DNA of 64,000 bases, taken from contig AP026970.1 of the NCBI GenBank assembly GCA_027924025.1, forward strand, positions 1,138,501-1,202,500, given 5' to 3'. This DNA is from Comamonadaceae bacterium OS-4. GTDB lineage: Bacteria; Pseudomonadota; Gammaproteobacteria; Burkholderiales; Burkholderiaceae_C. Shown in pieces: positions 48,596 to 55,402 of the stretch. A program made the translations under genes and the position numbers. Under the pieces are notes generated by a model. It did no database searches and had not been told where the DNA came from. It saw only the letters and a list, made by a program, of their open reading frames with translations. Position 1 is the stretch's first letter. Each line of letters opens with the position of its first letter.

Positions 48596-49354
48596 ATGGC
48601 TACCAATACCAACCAAAAGCTTGCCGTGCTGATAGATGCGGACAACGCGCAGGCGTCCGTCATCCAAGAGCTGTTGGCCGAAGTGTCGCGCTACGGTACC
48701 GCCACCATCAAGCGCGCCTATGGCGACTGGACGACCACCAACCTTAAGGGTTGGAAAGAGGTGCTGCACAAAATGGCTATCCAGCCGATACAGCAGTTCA
48801 GCTACACCAGCGGAAAAAACTCCACTGATGCGTCACTGATCATCGACGCCATGGATGTGCTGCACGACGACACGGTGGACGGCTTCTGTTTGGTCAGCAG
48901 CGACAGCGACTTCACTCGCCTGGCCACCCGCATCCGCGAAGAAGGCAAAGTGGTTTATGGCTTTGGCGAACGCAAAACGCCTGAGCCCTTTGTGGCGGCG
49001 TGCGACAAGTTCATTTACACGGAAATTTTGCGTGTAGAGCCTGCGCCTGAAAAAGATGCACCCAAAGTTGAACCAGTTGCTGTTGCCGATGTGCGCAAGC
49101 TTCAGCCCATGATCATTGCGGCTATCGATGCCCACGCGAGGGAAGATGGATGGGCTTCGCTTGGGGGTGTGGGCAGCCATATCGGGAAAATCAACCCCGC
49201 TTTCGACGCACGCAACTACGGCTTCAAAAAGCTAAGCGAACTAGTCCGTTCGCTTAACTACCTAGAAATAAAGGAACTGCCCTTGGTGCGGCCGGACGGT
49301 GTCACCGTGTCGAATGTGCAGATTCGGTTGAAACGGGTCCGTACCACGGCCTGA
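48596..49354 (+). CDS. NYN-domain ribonuclease with C-terminal LOTUS/OST-HTH domain
   Basis: A 252-residue cytoplasmic protein. The NYN (PIN-like) domain covers residues 8-150 with the acidic metal site in AVLIDADNAQ near 13, KNSTDASLIIDAMD near 75 and LVSSDSDFTRL near 100. Residues 165-250 form a winged-helix OST-HTH (LOTUS) domain (WASLGGVGSHIGK and YGFKKLSELVRS). This pairing is the LabA/MARF1-like arrangement, which binds and cuts RNA. The targets are unknown. Confidence 0.88.
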   Translation: MATNTNQKLAVLIDADNAQASVIQELLAEVSRYGTATIKRAYGDWTTTNLKGWKEVLHKMAIQPIQQFSYTSGKNSTDASLIIDAMDVLHDDTVDGFCLVSSDSDFTRLATRIREEGKVVYGFGERKTPEPFVAACDKFIYTEILRVEPAPEKDAPKVEPVAVADVRKLQPMIIAAIDAHAREDGWASLGGVGSHIGKINPAFDARNYGFKKLSELVRSLNYLEIKELPLVRPDGVTVSNVQIRLKRVRTTA

Positions 49355-50659: not shown

Positions 50660-50692
50660 GCGGCAGTATAGAACGCACTATTGCCAGATCTA

Positions 50693-50757
50693 AGCGAAAT
50701 ATGCCTCTAGCGCTCGTGGAATATGCGCGAGCAGCTACTAAAAGCGTAGCAAACCGG
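50693..50757 (+). repeat. dispersed two-hairpin repeat, copy 9
   Basis: Contains AAATATGCCTCTAGCGCTCG, AATATGCGCGAGCAGCTAC and AGCGTAGCAAAC. This copy is the closest to the family consensus. It lies between the DUF6929-like and DUF924 genes. Confidence 0.8.
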
Positions 50758-50768
50758 CTGCCGAAAAC

Positions 50769-51308
50769 CTAGAACGAAGACCCCGGCTCACTCAAGAAAG
50801 CCAGCTCCTCGGGCGTGGAGGTGCGGCCCAGGAGGGCGTTGCGGTGGGGGTAGCGGCCGAAGCGGTCGATGATCTCTTTGTGGCGCAGCTCAAAGCCCAG
50901 GGTGTCTTCCATGCCCGGCTGCGAAAACAGGGTCACGGCTTGCGCGTGCACCAGCGCGGACTCGCTGTGCATGTAGGGCATGTAGGCAAAGCTGCGCTGC
51001 GCCAGGGGCAGGCTGCGGTCCTGCCCGCTGGCCACCAGCTCTTGCGCCAGCACCAGGGCCAGCGCGTCCTGCGCAAAGGCGCGGGCGGTGTCGCGGTACA
51101 CATTGCGCGAGAACTGGTCCAGCACCAACACCTCCGCCAACCGCCCCTCGGGCGTGGCGCGCCAGGCAAACAGCTCACACCGCGCCGCAGCCTGCAGCGT
51201 GGCGCCGAAGCGGGTGCGGATGGCTTCGTCCAAGGCAGCGTCTTTGGCGAAGTGCTGCTTGGGGGTTAGCTCTTCGAACCAAAAGTGGAGGATTGTTCGG
51301 TGTTGCAT
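50769..51308 (-). CDS. DUF924 family protein
   Basis: A 179-residue protein with the DUF924 start HRTILHFWFEELTPKQHF and the central VLVLDQFSRNVYRDTARAFAQDALAL, then FAYMPYMHSESALVH. These helical TPR-like proteins are widespread and have no confirmed function. This is the last high-GC gene before the AT-rich island; its start is 32 bases from the island's first stop codon. Confidence 0.85.
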   Translation of the reverse strand: MQHRTILHFWFEELTPKQHFAKDAALDEAIRTRFGATLQAAARCELFAWRATPEGRLAEVLVLDQFSRNVYRDTARAFAQDALALVLAQELVASGQDRSLPLAQRSFAYMPYMHSESALVHAQAVTLFSQPGMEDTLGFELRHKEIIDRFGRYPHRNALLGRTSTPEELAFLSEPGSSF

Positions 51309-51340
51309 CGGTATCCTAGAAATAGAGAACGAAGCAGCGC

Positions 51341-52531
51341 TTATTCGAAGAACGAAAAGTCAGGCGTCCCAATACGGCTGAAGTATGTTCCAAGGCGTTC
51401 AACAAGCGATGGAAGAAATTCTGGTGCGACAGATGCAAATGGTTTTGACTCTGCTAGCTTTTTTCCATTTTCAGACTGTCTCTCTATAGTCATGATCTTG
51501 TCAAAACGCACAAAATAAGGGCCGCGGAAACTTCCGTCAGTTAGTCTCATTTGGTGAAGAAAATGGCAATTGGACTTACTGCGATGTTGGATGAGAGATC
51601 CTAGACTGTTCTTAGTACTCTTAAGTTTTTCCTCCCATTTCTGTACGGCTTCTTTATTCGCATCCTCCTTAGGCTTTTCCGCTTGAGTAGCGGAGTATTT
51701 ACCATAGCGATCATTCCAGTCCGCCGATATATCTTCACAGACCGCGATTTGGTAAGTCTCTTTGTTGCTTCCTGGGTTGTCTGCTAAATCGCATCGCGGA
51801 GTAATTACTATTCCTACGCTAGAGGGTTGATTCGTGTATTCGGAGATATCCACAAGATCACCGGTACGCAATCCTTGGCGTACCGGAGGCACAAAATACC
51901 ACTCTTCAGATAGGGCCTTTTGCCCATTTTTTGCGAGTAGCGCCGCATAAACATGTGATGCCATGTGCCGAGTTACAGCTTCTGTGACGATTGCGTCCGG
52001 ATCGACTTTCTTATCCAACCAAAACTTCCATCGTGGCCATATTGATTTTGAAAATAGCGCAGCCATTTCACTCTTGATGGTCTCTTCGGCTGCCCGGATG
52101 GTCAAGATCATCGGAGCACTTGCCGTCAGTTGGGCGAGGACCTTTTTGCTTCCGTCACCATCCTCCAACTTTTCGATTACTACGACTTCTGGTCCACGCT
52201 TTTCCTTCGATATAGCATCCCCCGGCTGTCCTGTGTAGATAATTACGATCGCAAGCTCACTCTTTTCGAGCGCCTCTACTACGTCATTCCCATCCGAGTT
52301 AGCCTCTTTGTGGTTGCCACCCGTTGCTAAGCCGAGATCAACTATGGCTGCGTCAAAGTCGGAATTGGCAATCAGATCAATCGCTCCTTTTTTTGTTGAG
52401 ACGAATGTTTCCCTCAACGTGAATCCGTTTGATTCAGCCGCCAGTACATTGTGCTGATCTATTTGTAGCTTCCAAGTTTTCGTTTCATGTTCGTCATCTT
52501 CGACAATTAGTAGTCGGATAGATTTGTCCAT
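51341..52531 (-). CDS. response-regulator protein with unrecognised C-terminal domain
   Basis: A 396-residue protein. Residues 1-130 form a receiver domain with all key residues in place: acidic pair Asp12/Asp13 (LLIVEDD), phospho-acceptor Asp65 (AIVDLGL), Thr100 (IIYTG) and Lys121 (VVIEK). Residues 130-190 are a helical linker. The C-terminal 200 residues have no DNA-binding helix-turn-helix that I can see; they carry VGIVITPRCDLADN, a charged coil (KPKEDANKEAVQKWEEKL) and a strand-rich end. It follows the ATPase/kinase gene by 18 bp, so the pair is one operon. Codon use is AT-richer than the neighbours. It is probably the output protein of that kinase. Confidence 0.8.
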   Translation of the reverse strand: MDKSIRLLIVEDDEHETKTWKLQIDQHNVLAAESNGFTLRETFVSTKKGAIDLIANSDFDAAIVDLGLATGGNHKEANSDGNDVVEALEKSELAIVIIYTGQPGDAISKEKRGPEVVVIEKLEDGDGSKKVLAQLTASAPMILTIRAAEETIKSEMAALFSKSIWPRWKFWLDKKVDPDAIVTEAVTRHMASHVYAALLAKNGQKALSEEWYFVPPVRQGLRTGDLVDISEYTNQPSSVGIVITPRCDLADNPGSNKETYQIAVCEDISADWNDRYGKYSATQAEKPKEDANKEAVQKWEEKLKSTKNSLGSLIQHRSKSNCHFLHQMRLTDGSFRGPYFVRFDKIMTIERQSENGKKLAESKPFASVAPEFLPSLVERLGTYFSRIGTPDFSFFE

Positions 52532-52549
52532 TTTTCTCGTCCCTGAAAA

Positions 52550-54748
52550 TTACATTGCCTTAGGCATATCGATTAGAAAGGTTGTATCGGTTGCGTTGCT
52601 AACAAATTGCAGGTCGCCTTTGCTTGCTCGGCATGCTTCGCGAGCAATGGTTAAGCCAATTCCAGTACCATCACTCTTTAGGCTAAAACCGGCTGAGAAC
52701 AGGCGCGGAATATATTCCTCGTCAATGTGGGGGCCATTGTTTGTTACAGCAATAAGAATTCGGGCTGCACTAGTAGTACCAGAAATGCGTATTTCGCGAT
52801 CGCCGTCCTTCTTTGTACTAACCCAATAAATTGCGTTTTCCAATAAATTAAGTAATGCTGCTTGCATATCCTCAGGATATCCGTAAGCAATCAATGCATC
52901 CGTTACTGAGGGTTGAACGCCAATGTTTGCTTTTTCAATACTATTTTGCAATAACTCAATGGTGTTTTCAACAACCGCTTGGACCTTGAAGTTGCTCGGT
53001 CGCCCACGGCGCCGACCAGAAATAGGGTCTAGCTGTTTGAAGAGCTTTCCCAGACTCTTGGCTCCCTGGGTAATGATTTCAAGATGTTGAGGCAGTTGGT
53101 TTCGCGCTAGCTCCCCTCTAGGGGTATTTGCCAACAGCGCATCACGTTGCTCGCCTAGGAGGCGAGTTGATGCTGCAAGTGGATTTAGAAATCTCCTACC
53201 TTCGTGAATTACTCGTGCGACCAACAAACCAAGTGCTGAGCGAGACTGTAATAATTTCTGATATGCATCCAATTCCTCTAGGGAATCCGTCAGTGCTTTC
53301 TGATCTCGTTCGATAGCCCGCAAAATCGTTGGTTGGTCTTTGGCAGGAATCGAAGCGATTGCTTTCCTTGTATTTTGCAGATTCGCCAGATCCTTCACTC
53401 TGCTGACATCCCCTGCAATCTTTCGACTTAAACCCGCATTTTCTCTGAAGGCCAACCGCCGCTCTTCTACATGGATTAGTACTCCTTGCAGTAAGTTTTT
53501 TAGTCTTTCAAATGCCCCGTTGTGCTCGAGCCCTTCGCGGCTACTTCTTTCTATTAATTGGGACGTCACCTCATCTTGAATCGTGACGCGTCCTGAAACT
53601 TGGGTAAGGCCCAATTTCTTCGACGGGTTTTGCACGCGTTGCCGTTCGAGTTCGAGCCAATCGTTTTCAGGCTCCCCGTATGGCCGAATCCTGAATCGAT
53701 TTCGAAAGATGGAAATACCCGCGTTATCTGTAAGTATGTTTCTCGCTGCACGGATGCCAATTTTTTCAAAATCAAGGCCCATTCTAGTAAACAGAGCCTC
53801 AACGGACTCCGATTCCCGATCGTAGACATTGATTCCGACATCTATCGCTCCACATGACATTTCATCGGCAAGCAGGGGCGCCCCCGGAACTTTCAATGCA
53901 ATGGGCTTGTCGTCACCCTTCACGATTGAAAACAGGCCTTCGAAATCACCTAATTCTGAAAATCTGCCTTGGAGTCGATAGTCCGCATATTCATGAATGC
54001 GAAAGGGAACTATAAGCGTCGACGTTAATGACGTAGGCTCCTGATTTGGATCGAGCAGGTTTGAGTTCATCTCACTCATCAAAGTTGATCCGTCAAATCC
54101 GGATGTTTCAACTTTTATGGCCGACAGATCTAAATGAATTTCAAATTTCTCTGTTTCGTCTGATGGCGTTGCTACTCGCCGCAACTCCCTAATTAATCCT
54201 TCTATCTTTTTTTGAGTCCAAACGTCTCGCAAATTTTCTATTTGTAGCTCGACTCCTGTGTGGAGCGAAGTGCTTTTCTCACAAAATTCATTAACGATGG
54301 GGATTTCGAGTTCATCCAAGTACTTGTCCGAAGAAAACTGATCCCAATCGATTTCAACCGTCACTTGACTATAGATGTCCGGTTCGACTTGGGATGTGGT
54401 GATCAGTTTCGTTCTGGTTCCTAGTCTTGAAGCTGCAAAGCGACCTATACCCTTTGCTCCAAGTAGTCTGCGGCCACCTGGGCTAGTGATGCGTTTCAGT
54501 TTCTCGTCTGTCGCCGGCTCGAACCAACGATTTACGACGTCATCATATGTCATGCCATGGCCATGATCTTGGACAATGATTCTTCCAAATGGGTGCTCGC
54601 CACCTTTGGGAATGATGGTTATTCCAACAGCAGGTGAGTCAGCATCGAAGGCATTCTTAACTAGTTCAATTAATGCTGCCTCTGGGCCGCTAATTAGTTG
54701 GTCTCCAATAGTTCGAACAATTCTTGCGCGTGGTCTAAGTATTGCCAT
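52550..54748 (-). CDS. double GHKL ATPase: Hsp90/MORC-like N-domain plus histidine-kinase core
   Basis: A 732-residue cytoplasmic protein without membrane helices. The N-terminal ATPase has the N-box IELVKNAFDAD (Glu28, Asn32, Asp35), the G1 box VQDHGHGM and the G2 box LLGAKGIGRFAASRLG, as in Hsp90, MutL and MORC proteins. A middle region of about 300 residues has coiled-coil-like helices. The C-terminal kinase core has an H-box-like VIHEGRRFLNPL with His515, an N-box NLLENAIYW near 636, a weak G1 NNGPHI and a G2 GTGIGLTIARE near 695. It is the upstream member of an operon with the receiver protein. A similar build occurs in bacterial conflict systems; the trigger is unknown. Confidence 0.82.
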   Translation of the reverse strand: MAILRPRARIVRTIGDQLISGPEAALIELVKNAFDADSPAVGITIIPKGGEHPFGRIIVQDHGHGMTYDDVVNRWFEPATDEKLKRITSPGGRRLLGAKGIGRFAASRLGTRTKLITTSQVEPDIYSQVTVEIDWDQFSSDKYLDELEIPIVNEFCEKSTSLHTGVELQIENLRDVWTQKKIEGLIRELRRVATPSDETEKFEIHLDLSAIKVETSGFDGSTLMSEMNSNLLDPNQEPTSLTSTLIVPFRIHEYADYRLQGRFSELGDFEGLFSIVKGDDKPIALKVPGAPLLADEMSCGAIDVGINVYDRESESVEALFTRMGLDFEKIGIRAARNILTDNAGISIFRNRFRIRPYGEPENDWLELERQRVQNPSKKLGLTQVSGRVTIQDEVTSQLIERSSREGLEHNGAFERLKNLLQGVLIHVEERRLAFRENAGLSRKIAGDVSRVKDLANLQNTRKAIASIPAKDQPTILRAIERDQKALTDSLEELDAYQKLLQSRSALGLLVARVIHEGRRFLNPLAASTRLLGEQRDALLANTPRGELARNQLPQHLEIITQGAKSLGKLFKQLDPISGRRRGRPSNFKVQAVVENTIELLQNSIEKANIGVQPSVTDALIAYGYPEDMQAALLNLLENAIYWVSTKKDGDREIRISGTTSAARILIAVTNNGPHIDEEYIPRLFSAGFSLKSDGTGIGLTIAREACRASKGDLQFVSNATDTTFLIDMPKAM

Positions 54749-55402
54749 TCAGTGTTTCCTTGAAAAGATTCAATAGAGTTAATTCGCTAAGTCAATTTTC
54801 AAACAGCATAGCCCACTGATATTTGTCATGGATTACTCAATCCAAGTTTGTCGTTTCTCCGAGCTTCCAACTATTTCCTGCGGTTTGTAGAGAATATCCT
54901 ACAGTGCATCACATCAAACTAATGTGCGTATATGATTTATTCTCGATCCGCTTGTGAATCAAAATATAATGTTTTTGACCAGAAGTCAGAGCTGCCAGTG
55001 GCTAAGACGCGCGATTTGTTTGGACAATGCTTTTATTCCAGCTTCGTAATTCAGTTCAATGCACTTAGCTTCTAGTGCGAAGCTCAACGCTTTAAACCCA
55101 CGCGCTCCGTTCAATATGATATGTTCTTGGCGCTTCACACCCTTCATCCTGCTTCGGGCGGCTCATTTTCCAAGTGCTTTGATGTCGATATCCTCAATAG
55201 GGGCAGCGAAGATCTGTGCATTTGGGGAATAGAATTCTTAGTTCGAGTAGCAAGCGCCTACTCGTTCGGAAATAAATGGGGAATCCCACAATATTGAACA
55301 GTCCCACACTCGCCAAATCTTCCGCCGCAGAATAAGTCGACGAAGGTTGTTTGTTCGGACATCATTGGCGTATTCCAGATTATCCGAGTGAAGGCTGGAC
55401 GA
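54749..55402. other. AT-rich noncoding and decayed stretch upstream of the kinase gene
   Basis: No intact gene fits here. The part next to the kinase (54749-54980) is AT-rich and must hold the operon promoter on the minus strand; I could not settle on -35 and -10 boxes. The part from 54986 to 55362 holds frame-shifted coding remains on the minus strand, one of them a cytosine methyltransferase start. Composition is clearly lower in GC than glnS, which follows. Confidence 0.6.
54986..55362 (-). pseudogene. decayed coding region starting with a C5-cytosine methyltransferase fragment
   Basis: From the ATG at 55362 a frame of 34 codons reads MSEQTTFVDLFCGGRFGE and stops at 55258. FVDLFCGG is motif I (SAM binding) of C5-cytosine DNA methyltransferases, but the following GGF-EG glycines are broken (GRFGEC). 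Further along on the same strand, short frames continue across shifts (KGVKRQEHIILNG, then CIELNYEAGIKALSK). The rest of the enzyme, including the catalytic Pro-Cys loop, is gone. It looks like what is left of a restriction-modification or solitary methylase gene. Confidence 0.6.

Follow-up and report, generated by a model that had tools for sequence, protein, structure and literature searches.

We analyzed a 64,000-nucleotide stretch of the genome of Comamonadaceae bacterium OS-4 (contig AP026970.1, positions 1,138,501 to 1,202,500; hereafter the window), which encodes a histidine-kinase-like protein, K, and, 18 bp away (52532-52549), a receiver protein, R. The R gene lies downstream of the K gene, and both are on the minus strand. 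Judged from sequence, a role of the pair in defense is likely. On balance, we lean towards the view that K-R is the attack arm of a restriction-modification (R-M)-like system, in which a two-component relay takes the place of the restriction enzyme. Relays of this kind are ordinarily interpreted as devices that regulate genes. The best reason for seeing an attack arm rather than a regulator is a nuclease gene that recurs directly behind the receiver gene in related loci.

This gene order emerged from a scan of viral contigs with the K alignment, in which 80 of 82 loci were kept and 79 had a K open reading frame (ORF) recognized by profile; free phages and prophages are not distinguished in these counts. 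The gene after K was on the same strand and at most 60 bp away in 75 of the 79 loci, and the R profile recognized it in 44. A short receiver-like gene was followed by an HNH gene in 13 of the 79 loci, and by a metallo-beta-lactamase-fold (MBL) gene in three. Pfam agreed with these gene assignments in all genes checked (HNH in 4 of 4, Lactamase_B in 1 of 1). A strict HNH pattern matched 12 of the 13 viral proteins (not L246) and missed a Deinococcus protein. The K proteins of these 16 loci keep the likely phospho-acceptor H515 and the N-terminal site, and the G1 box is complete in 15 of them.

Methyltransferases were counted in the viral loci within two genes upstream or three genes downstream of K. 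A 5-methylcytosine (m5C) methyltransferase was present in 32 of the 79 loci, and a putative NPPY-type enzyme in 34 more. As a test, the NPPY motif is crude and also matches 5 of 104 ORFs further off; Pfam backed an amino-methyltransferase in all three sampled candidates (L211, L228, L233), in one case below the cut-off, and L211 had been flagged by a wider methyltransferase pattern only. An NPPY-type gene was present in 15 of the 16 loci with an HNH or MBL gene, and an m5C methyltransferase in none. A strict split, with m5C methylases accompanying the PxCD output domain of R (see below) and NPPY-type methylases accompanying HNH or MBL genes, was not clean, since PxCD loci with amino-methylase candidates also occur, among them the Pfam-confirmed L211.

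Plasmids carry such operons as well. The order methylase, histidine kinase, receiver, HNH was found in Deinococcus gobiensis (receiver read by eye), and the order methylase, histidine kinase, receiver, MBL in Burkholderia aenigmatica (receiver annotated as such) and Hymenobacter volaticus (receiver read by eye), with the HxDxDH motif intact in both MBL proteins. The annotated methylase-kinase-receiver-HNH operon of D. gobiensis is intact (L279:3538-8505) and makes the relay idea directly testable. At E<=1e-40, K matched 47 plasmid records altogether, including 41 from Campylobacter. Among the arrangements were K-R beside a convergent dcm gene, vsr-methylase-K-R followed by an Mza-like cassette, and K-R-vsr-methylase. 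The 18 kb read of the Enterobacter mori plasmid that carries the pair (L015) contained no methyltransferase, and a search of E. coli genomes with this Enterobacter pair gave no match. A viral scan with R alone found nothing, and phage records contained no R match.

Some further genes were seen in these contigs. A family of about 240-320 residues with the pattern H-x-D ... H-F-(Q/H)-x-G-G ... P-R follows K and a receiver-like protein as the second gene after K (L219, L222, L244, L256, L258, L267, L269, L270 and others), and is a possible further effector class. At L229:7667-8269, K and a receiver-like gene are followed by a 201-residue "GAYSHG...SC" protein, peptidase-like by eye, which had no Pfam match. 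On a Klebsiella variicola plasmid (L283:5001-7271), a K gene of the HNH/MBL branch is split over three ORFs beside an N-6 methylase, and its PTS-glucitol neighborhood is that of the Enterobacter mori K-R locus.

The link to methyltransferases holds among closer relatives. We compiled 90 loci, consisting of 10 early finds and the best 80 of at least 542 relatives from a genome scan with the K alignment, so that the rates apply to near relatives; L018, a Campylobacter locus close to L016 and L017, was left out of the count. Neighbors were labeled by BLAST clusters with annotated genes of L010 (methyltransferase, Vsr, MORC, Z1, AIPR) or by eye (XRE), and the first methyltransferase profile was built from four early finds. 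R adjoins K in 84 of the 90 loci, across many phyla, most commonly with a 4-bp overlap (78 pairs). The two proteins co-diverge (Mantel r 0.91, none of 2,000 permutations as high) in a test on 57 loci, each with R and with a methyltransferase within 5 kb, after removal of five near-duplicates.

Apart from R, the most constant partner of K is an m5C methyltransferase, present within 10 kb in 73 of the 90 loci (within 3 kb in 65) and in 51 of the 58 loci of at least 15 kb. For background, a PF00145 gene of any kind occurs in 59 of 100 whole genomes of the phylum. The nearest methyltransferase lies upstream of K on the same strand in 46 of the 73 loci. Other genes within 10 kb of K encode Vsr (29 of 90 loci), MORC (13), Z1 (13), AIPR (11) and XRE (9) proteins. 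Among same-strand runs, K-R (24) and methyltransferase-K-R (15) are the most frequent. A methylase-K-R operon lies at L010:717-5496 in Hymenobacter NBH84. By our own count, 55 of the 90 runs contain only K, R, methyltransferase, Vsr, XRE or HerA-like ATPase genes. Pfam searches of 41 of the 55 unlabeled operon-mates gave scattered restriction or defense families, none in more than two proteins (RE_HaeIII 1, RE_AspBHI_N 1, GmrSD_N 1, HNH 2, HNH_2 1, ResIII 2; 25 of 37 families listed).

Members of a MORC-Z1-PD-D/ExK-AIPR cassette, which we take to be the composition of the Mza system, lie within 10 kb of K in 11-13 of the 90 loci. K-R is nevertheless a separate module, usually found without the cassette, and the PADLOC MzaB model matches 4 of 57 K proteins weakly. 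Such cassettes adjoin K-R or lie one or two genes away from it in L010, L038, L057, L066, L102 and L104. At L100:5330-10957, a 1,876-residue protein directly follows K in place of R. In single-sequence searches, R was found in 1 of 198 relatives and in 4 of 398 genomes of the phylum, the OS-4 genome included. The distribution of K-R is thus sporadic and mobile.

In the window, the methyltransferase is present as a relic upstream of K and in K's orientation, the order also seen in 46 of the 73 related loci with a methyltransferase. It spans about 45-60 codons of the motif-I N-terminus and is of the type DLFCGxGFGARGA, like the genes near K-R in L054, L058, L059, L095 and L097. With default tblastn statistics the match had an E value of 1.1e-7, the best of 86 query proteins, compared with a best value of 2e-4 for 100 random 655-bp pieces of the window; without composition adjustment the contrast was smaller (5.8e-8 vs 2.8e-6). 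Pfam did not detect the relic, and nothing recognizable was found of the remainder of the gene beyond it. Methyltransferase remains had been noted in the initial annotation. They are real, if short, and not the incidental neighbor that they seemed, being a decayed copy of the constant partner. The methyltransferase has decayed here, and this copy of K-R is probably orphaned. An intact m5C methyltransferase gene elsewhere in the OS-4 genome (C1:3203010), among R-M-like genes as judged by eye, was considered as a protector.

Both ORFs are full length. The initial annotation had described K as a soluble 732-residue protein with an Hsp90/MORC-type ATPase domain and a histidine-kinase core that keeps its H-box histidine, and all of this was borne out. 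The ORFs were confirmed, and no transmembrane segment is indicated in K (maximum 19-residue Kyte-Doolittle mean 0.93). Pfam places HATPase_c_3 at residues 22-142 (E 1.2e-15) and HATPase_c at 625-730 (E 2.5e-21); only HATPase families were above the cut-off, and no nuclease domain (DUF4263 or PD-D/ExK) was found. NCBIfam shows a resemblance of residues 11-215 to the BbrUII/HgiDII restriction enzymes (E 2.5e-17, far below the family cut-off). The PADLOC type II restriction-enzyme model is matched by 56 of the 57 members of alignment A4, in window K through the ATPase domain. A4 contains window K and 56 of the 80 K proteins, after removal of rows that had long upstream ORF extensions, were truncated or were near-duplicates.

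The AlphaFold model of K (mean predicted local distance difference test (pLDDT) 86, predicted template modeling score (pTM) 0.64) is consistent with this assignment. Residues 1-435 best match the ATPase-transducer part of Morc3 (5ix2; Z 24.1, 3.0 A, 304 residues), with Hsp90 proteins and TRAP1 close behind (Z 20-22), and the predicted combination of a GHKL site with an S5-like transducer is the arrangement of MORC ATPases. Residues 504-731 match complete cores of a dimerization and histidine phosphotransfer (DHp) domain and a catalytic (CA) domain, such as that of HK853 (Z 21.4, 4.7 A, 218 residues), with H260 of HK853 corresponding to H515 of K, as placed by alignment end points. In an alignment to which all 90 K sequences were restored alongside that of the window, E28, N32, D61, G63, G65, K99, G100 and G102 are identical in 91 of 91 sequences, and H515 is kept in all 90 that reach this position. 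The MORC half of K looks fully competent.

For R, searches with Pfam, PADLOC and NCBIfam models yielded nothing significant, only Amidase_6 at a sub-cut-off E value of 0.12. The structure model is confident (pLDDT 91.9, pTM 0.86), and residues 5-143 align to the receiver (REC) domain of ComE (VIA-align Z 16.2, 2.2 A, 128 residues). A long helix joins this domain to an output domain of about 190 residues. This agrees with the initial annotation, which had seen a complete receiver followed by about 200 residues without a recognizable output domain. No transmembrane segment is indicated (maximum 19-residue Kyte-Doolittle mean 1.07). Conservation was assessed in alignment A3 (window R and 68 of the 80 R proteins; a subset of 48 of these 69 forms alignment A6) and in a wider alignment of 79. 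D65 is kept in 69 of 69 and 79 of 79 sequences, respectively, and 68 of the 69 have K or R at position 121. In the output domain, P245 and C247 are invariant in A3 (77 of 79 and 79 of 79 in the wider alignment), D248 is D in 61 of 69, and the final R-x-G-x-P-D motif is strong. As in two-component systems generally, the pair combines a histidine in a DHp hairpin with a REC fold bearing an acidic pair, Asp, Thr and Lys.

The output domain could not be assigned to a family. No Pfam family was common to more than two of the 48 members, a profile search against sequences in the PDB gave a single chance match (E 1.1), no DNA-binding output family appeared in scans of R and its output domain, and Foldseek and VIA-align lists for whole R were filled by REC-domain matches. 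PemK/MazF, prompted by the order of secondary structure elements, was not supported as the output fold (hhalign probability 1.4%, P 0.04).

Table 1. Features of the K-R island, in window positions.
Feature	Position	Strand	Description	Basis
Acquired island	51294..55402	.		end of nucleotide homology to congeners
R gene	51341..52531	-	receiver protein with unclassified output domain, 396 aa	
R 204-396	51344..51922	-	output domain: PxCD motif (P245, C247, D248), C-terminal RxGxPD	alignments
R 1-146	52094..52531	-	REC fold: E11/D12, likely phospho-acceptor D65, T100, K121	structure, alignments
K gene	52550..54748	-	MORC-type GHKL ATPase and transducer fused to histidine-kinase DHp-CA core, 732 aa	
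K 582-732	52553..53005	-	kinase catalytic (CA) domain, G1 box NNGPHI, not DxGxG	structure, alignment
K 504-573	53030..53239	-	DHp hairpin, likely phospho-acceptor H515 (codon 53204-53206)	structure and conservation
K 1-435	53444..54748	-	MORC ATPase-transducer module	structure match and residue conservation
Methyltransferase relic	55216..55371	-	5' end of m5C DNA methyltransferase, motif I DLFCGxxFG, stop in frame	tblastn

These features suggest how such a system might work. The linked DNA methyltransferase would mark the host genome. K would dimerize through its MORC-type clamp, closing on or along DNA and distinguishing unprotected incoming DNA. Clamp closure would then lead to phosphorylation of H515 and transfer of the phosphate to D65 of R, residues that are both present, and phosphorylated R would act through its output domain on the invader or the cell. 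In other branches, the separate HNH or MBL-fold gene found after the core may take over this step. We put forward more tentatively, at just under even chances, the wider picture of a modular immune family in which methylation denotes self, a MORC clamp-kinase inspects DNA and the phosphorelay licenses interchangeable effectors (the PxCD output domain, an HNH nuclease or an MBL-fold protein, as part of the same joint picture), with the window pair as an orphan from a sub-clade whose kinase ATP site is altered. If true, this would be restriction-modification with a signaling cascade as the restriction step, would join bacterial R-M, MORC-type DNA compaction and phosphorelay signaling in one machine, and would offer a tractable bacterial model of a MORC clamp sensing DNA methylation.

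Several observations weigh against the attack-arm reading. Distances between K proteins and between methyltransferases correlate only moderately (Mantel r 0.42, a value reached in none of 2,000 permutations). The correlation is weaker than would be expected if K must read the same sequence as its methylase, and in comparison with the value of 0.91 for K and R strict co-specificity of K and methylase is not supported. In seven of the 58 loci of at least 15 kb, no m5C methyltransferase lies within 10 kb; K is intact there at the checked residues, apart from a variant G1 box in L030 and, in three of the proteins, E516D. The linkage is therefore not strict. Of the viral loci, 13 of 79 had no methyltransferase by either the m5C or the NPPY-type test, and a Pseudanabaena plasmid has a histidine kinase-receiver-MBL arrangement with an inserted transposase, with no methylase annotated in the stretch read. 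Because of the moderate correlation and the methylase-free loci, what K senses may not be a single methylated motif; it might instead be, for instance, a certain type of DNA structure or a general lack of modification. The loci with HNH or MBL genes are also remote (best-segment K identity to the window 22-29%), and the R profile sees a receiver in 8 of these 16 loci, the others having been read by eye. In the output domain of R itself, neither Pfam nor the PDB sequence profile revealed a recognized nuclease motif or family.

Other unfavorable points concern the window copy. Its kinase ATP site carries D670N and G674H (G1 = NNGPHI), at positions where D is present in 86 of 89 and G in 85 of 89 K sequences, and R has a histidine at position 326, alone among 79 sequences, 73 of which have proline. 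The initial annotation had named a kinase core lacking ATP or phosphotransfer residues as a refutation, and this is touched in part: in contrast to the two-component canon the G1 box is incomplete, but N634, N638 (N box), G694, G696 and G698 (G2 box) are kept along with H515. The G1-box Asp of GHKL proteins holds adenine, and it is therefore doubtful, as far as sequence can tell, that the kinase half uses ATP in this sub-clade. The sub-clade (support 1.0) comprises the window, Duganella L029 and Hydrogenophaga L030, whose K proteins are 49% and 47% identical to window K; all three have D670N, and position 674 is H, L and L, respectively. One may ask whether the window copy no longer functions and persists, in decay, only because it was acquired recently, and we regard this as a serious possibility, though at rather less than even chances. 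The methyltransferase stub, the G1 box and position 326 of R speak for it. However, both ORFs are full length and the other checked catalytic residues are kept, and since D670N is common to L029 and L030, it is old rather than gained during decay here, so that we dropped the G1-box change as proof of local decay. Because its methyltransferase has decayed to a stub, the window copy is probably an orphan that is silent, weakened, or working without self-marking.

Two explanations address the family as a whole. The pair might be a signaling device that regulates nearby R-M systems without itself attacking DNA, as proposed in print for related pairs (PMC8011034). The tight link to m5C methyltransferases and Vsr fits this proposal, as do the scattered restriction-type families among the 41 scanned operon-mates. 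However, the 55 of 90 same-strand runs described above have no candidate for a separate restriction enzyme (opposite-strand neighbors and short contigs are outside this count), the scans of R and its output domain show no DNA-binding family, and the HNH or MBL gene that directly follows the receiver in 16 of the 79 viral loci is easier to reconcile with an effector than with a regulon. We therefore consider a purely regulatory role unlikely. Alternatively, K-R, the m5C methyltransferase and Vsr might form a module for DNA repair or chromosome maintenance, with a MutL/MORC-like clamp and with Vsr acting on T:G mismatches at methylated sites. The MORC/MutL-type ATPase and the Vsr genes in 29 of 90 loci are in keeping with this idea, but 61 of the 90 loci have no Vsr in the stretch examined, and the sporadic distribution, the carriage by plasmids and viral contigs and the variable chromosomal spot make it very improbable.

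We compared K-R with systems already known. The initial annotation drew a parallel with Detocs, reportedly a two-component phosphorelay in phage defense with a nucleoside-phosphorylase-type effector. It holds as an analogy, but no homology was found: sensor and effector of Detocs are said to differ from those of K-R, with neither methyltransferase nor MORC domain, and no Pfam match of the nucleoside-phosphorylase type was found in R. Compared with type II R-M systems, the window has a methyltransferase stub only, and Pfam shows no endonuclease domain in K or R.

The closest published relatives are the HEF_HK (PF19191) and Response_reg_2 (PF19192) pairs described beside C5 methylases and Vsr (Bellieny-Rabelo et al., 2021, PMC8011034; statements on this and the following papers refer to the portions used here). 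They share with K-R an N-terminal HATPase_c_3, DHp-like helices with a conserved His, a C-terminal HATPase_c, a soluble kinase, an adjoining receiver-like gene, and a nearby C5 methyltransferase and Vsr; the linked C5 methyltransferase is found in 73 of 90 related loci, and as a relic only in the window. That paper already suggested HATPase_c_3 as the sensor, so that the N-terminal ATPase as sensor, offered as new in the initial annotation, is not a new idea, and it proposed that the pairs control R-M. Their neighbors include HNH_2, other nuclease domains and N6/N4 methylases. On the receiver-like protein the paper reports no other known domain, and the portion used contains no description of a methylase-kinase-REC-effector operon whose parts can be exchanged.

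The layout, which the initial annotation held to differ from known ones, is thus not new in kind; the window proteins miss both Pfam models. Window K does not match HEF_HK at E<=1, and the OS-4 genome has no match, while 11 of 299 phylum genomes do; window R does not match Response_reg_2, nor does the OS-4 genome, in a genome search in which this model matched nowhere at all. At E<=0.1, HEF_HK is matched by 4 of the 57 K proteins in A4 (best 1.8e-6), and Response_reg_2 by 1 of the 69 R proteins in A3 (2.1e-5). Response_reg is matched by 46 of the 69 at this threshold, placing the receiver nearer to a canonical REC. Since so few K and R proteins match the two models, K-R is, by sequence, a sister clade of HEF_HK/Response_reg_2. 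A profile of the output domain had nine matches in 398 phylum genomes, four strong (the OS-4 genome included) and five weak. Three of the weak matches adjoin HEF_HK genes (G374, G477, G235; E 2.5e-5 to 1.2e-4 per genome), a weak hint that both families have this output domain in common. What is new here is the sister clade, its output domain, and the interchangeable methylases and effectors.

Other relatives share the ATPase. MORC and paraMORC1-5 R-M systems (Iyer et al., 2008, PMC2292703) likewise have a GHKL+S5 module, Dcm and Vsr neighbors and a sporadic distribution, but in the portion used no fusion with a histidine-kinase core is described, and the main text nowhere uses the word "receiver"; paraMORC3 has a nuclease domain and K does not. 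Anti-phage activity has been shown for VcSduA, a GHKL Shedu (paraMORC3) protein, in which the GHKL clamp is also proposed to control an effector (PMC12137116); that effector is a fused DUF4263 nuclease, where K-R has a phosphorelay instead. The legend of Fig. 6F in the DefensePredictor paper (PMC13092281) names HATPase and REC for predicted, unvalidated defense systems, which may or may not correspond to the present family. We recognized no experimental study of the K-R family in the open-access literature, subscription papers and preprints being mostly outside the scope of this search. Overall, the observations of the initial annotation were confirmed, and its interpretation was partly supported.

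The genomic setting supports horizontal acquisition of the K-R pair. An AT-rich island between ordinary genes had been proposed, and GC content is indeed 43-53% over 51-55 kb, compared with mostly 57-66% in the surroundings. Homology of congeners to the window ends at about 51293 on the side of a DUF924 gene and at about 55402 on the side of glnS, the two genes that flank the variable gap holding K-R. In the host genome (4.07 Mb, two contigs), K is the sole full-length match to itself, and 13 other sites match the kinase half only. Of 41 genomes searched, 26 had a DUF924 match, and the gap was read in eight congeners. In L171 and L176 the two genes are about 20 bp apart, in L172 275 bp and in L169, which has a 99% identical GlnS, 0.7 kb. 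Longer gaps occur in L170 (2.9 kb), L173 (2.7 kb, containing a long ORF that by eye resembles a transposase) and L174 (4.3 kb). In L175 the gap extends over several kb; a large ORF there resembles a methylase (by eye), and the DUF924 gene is broken. The glnS-DUF924 gap is thus a recurrent insertion spot.

Partial copies of DUF924 (the last 24-45 or first 39-75 codons), relatives of window 50694-51308, lie beside cargo by glnS in L170, L173, L174 and L175. A sequence of 44-62 bp just 3' of DUF924 (window 50692-50754) recurs elsewhere in congeners at 80-90% identity (L169, L170, L175). Near the island, the window also encodes an NYN-OST-HTH protein (48596-49354; NYN E 2.8e-40, OST-HTH E 5.3e-16).

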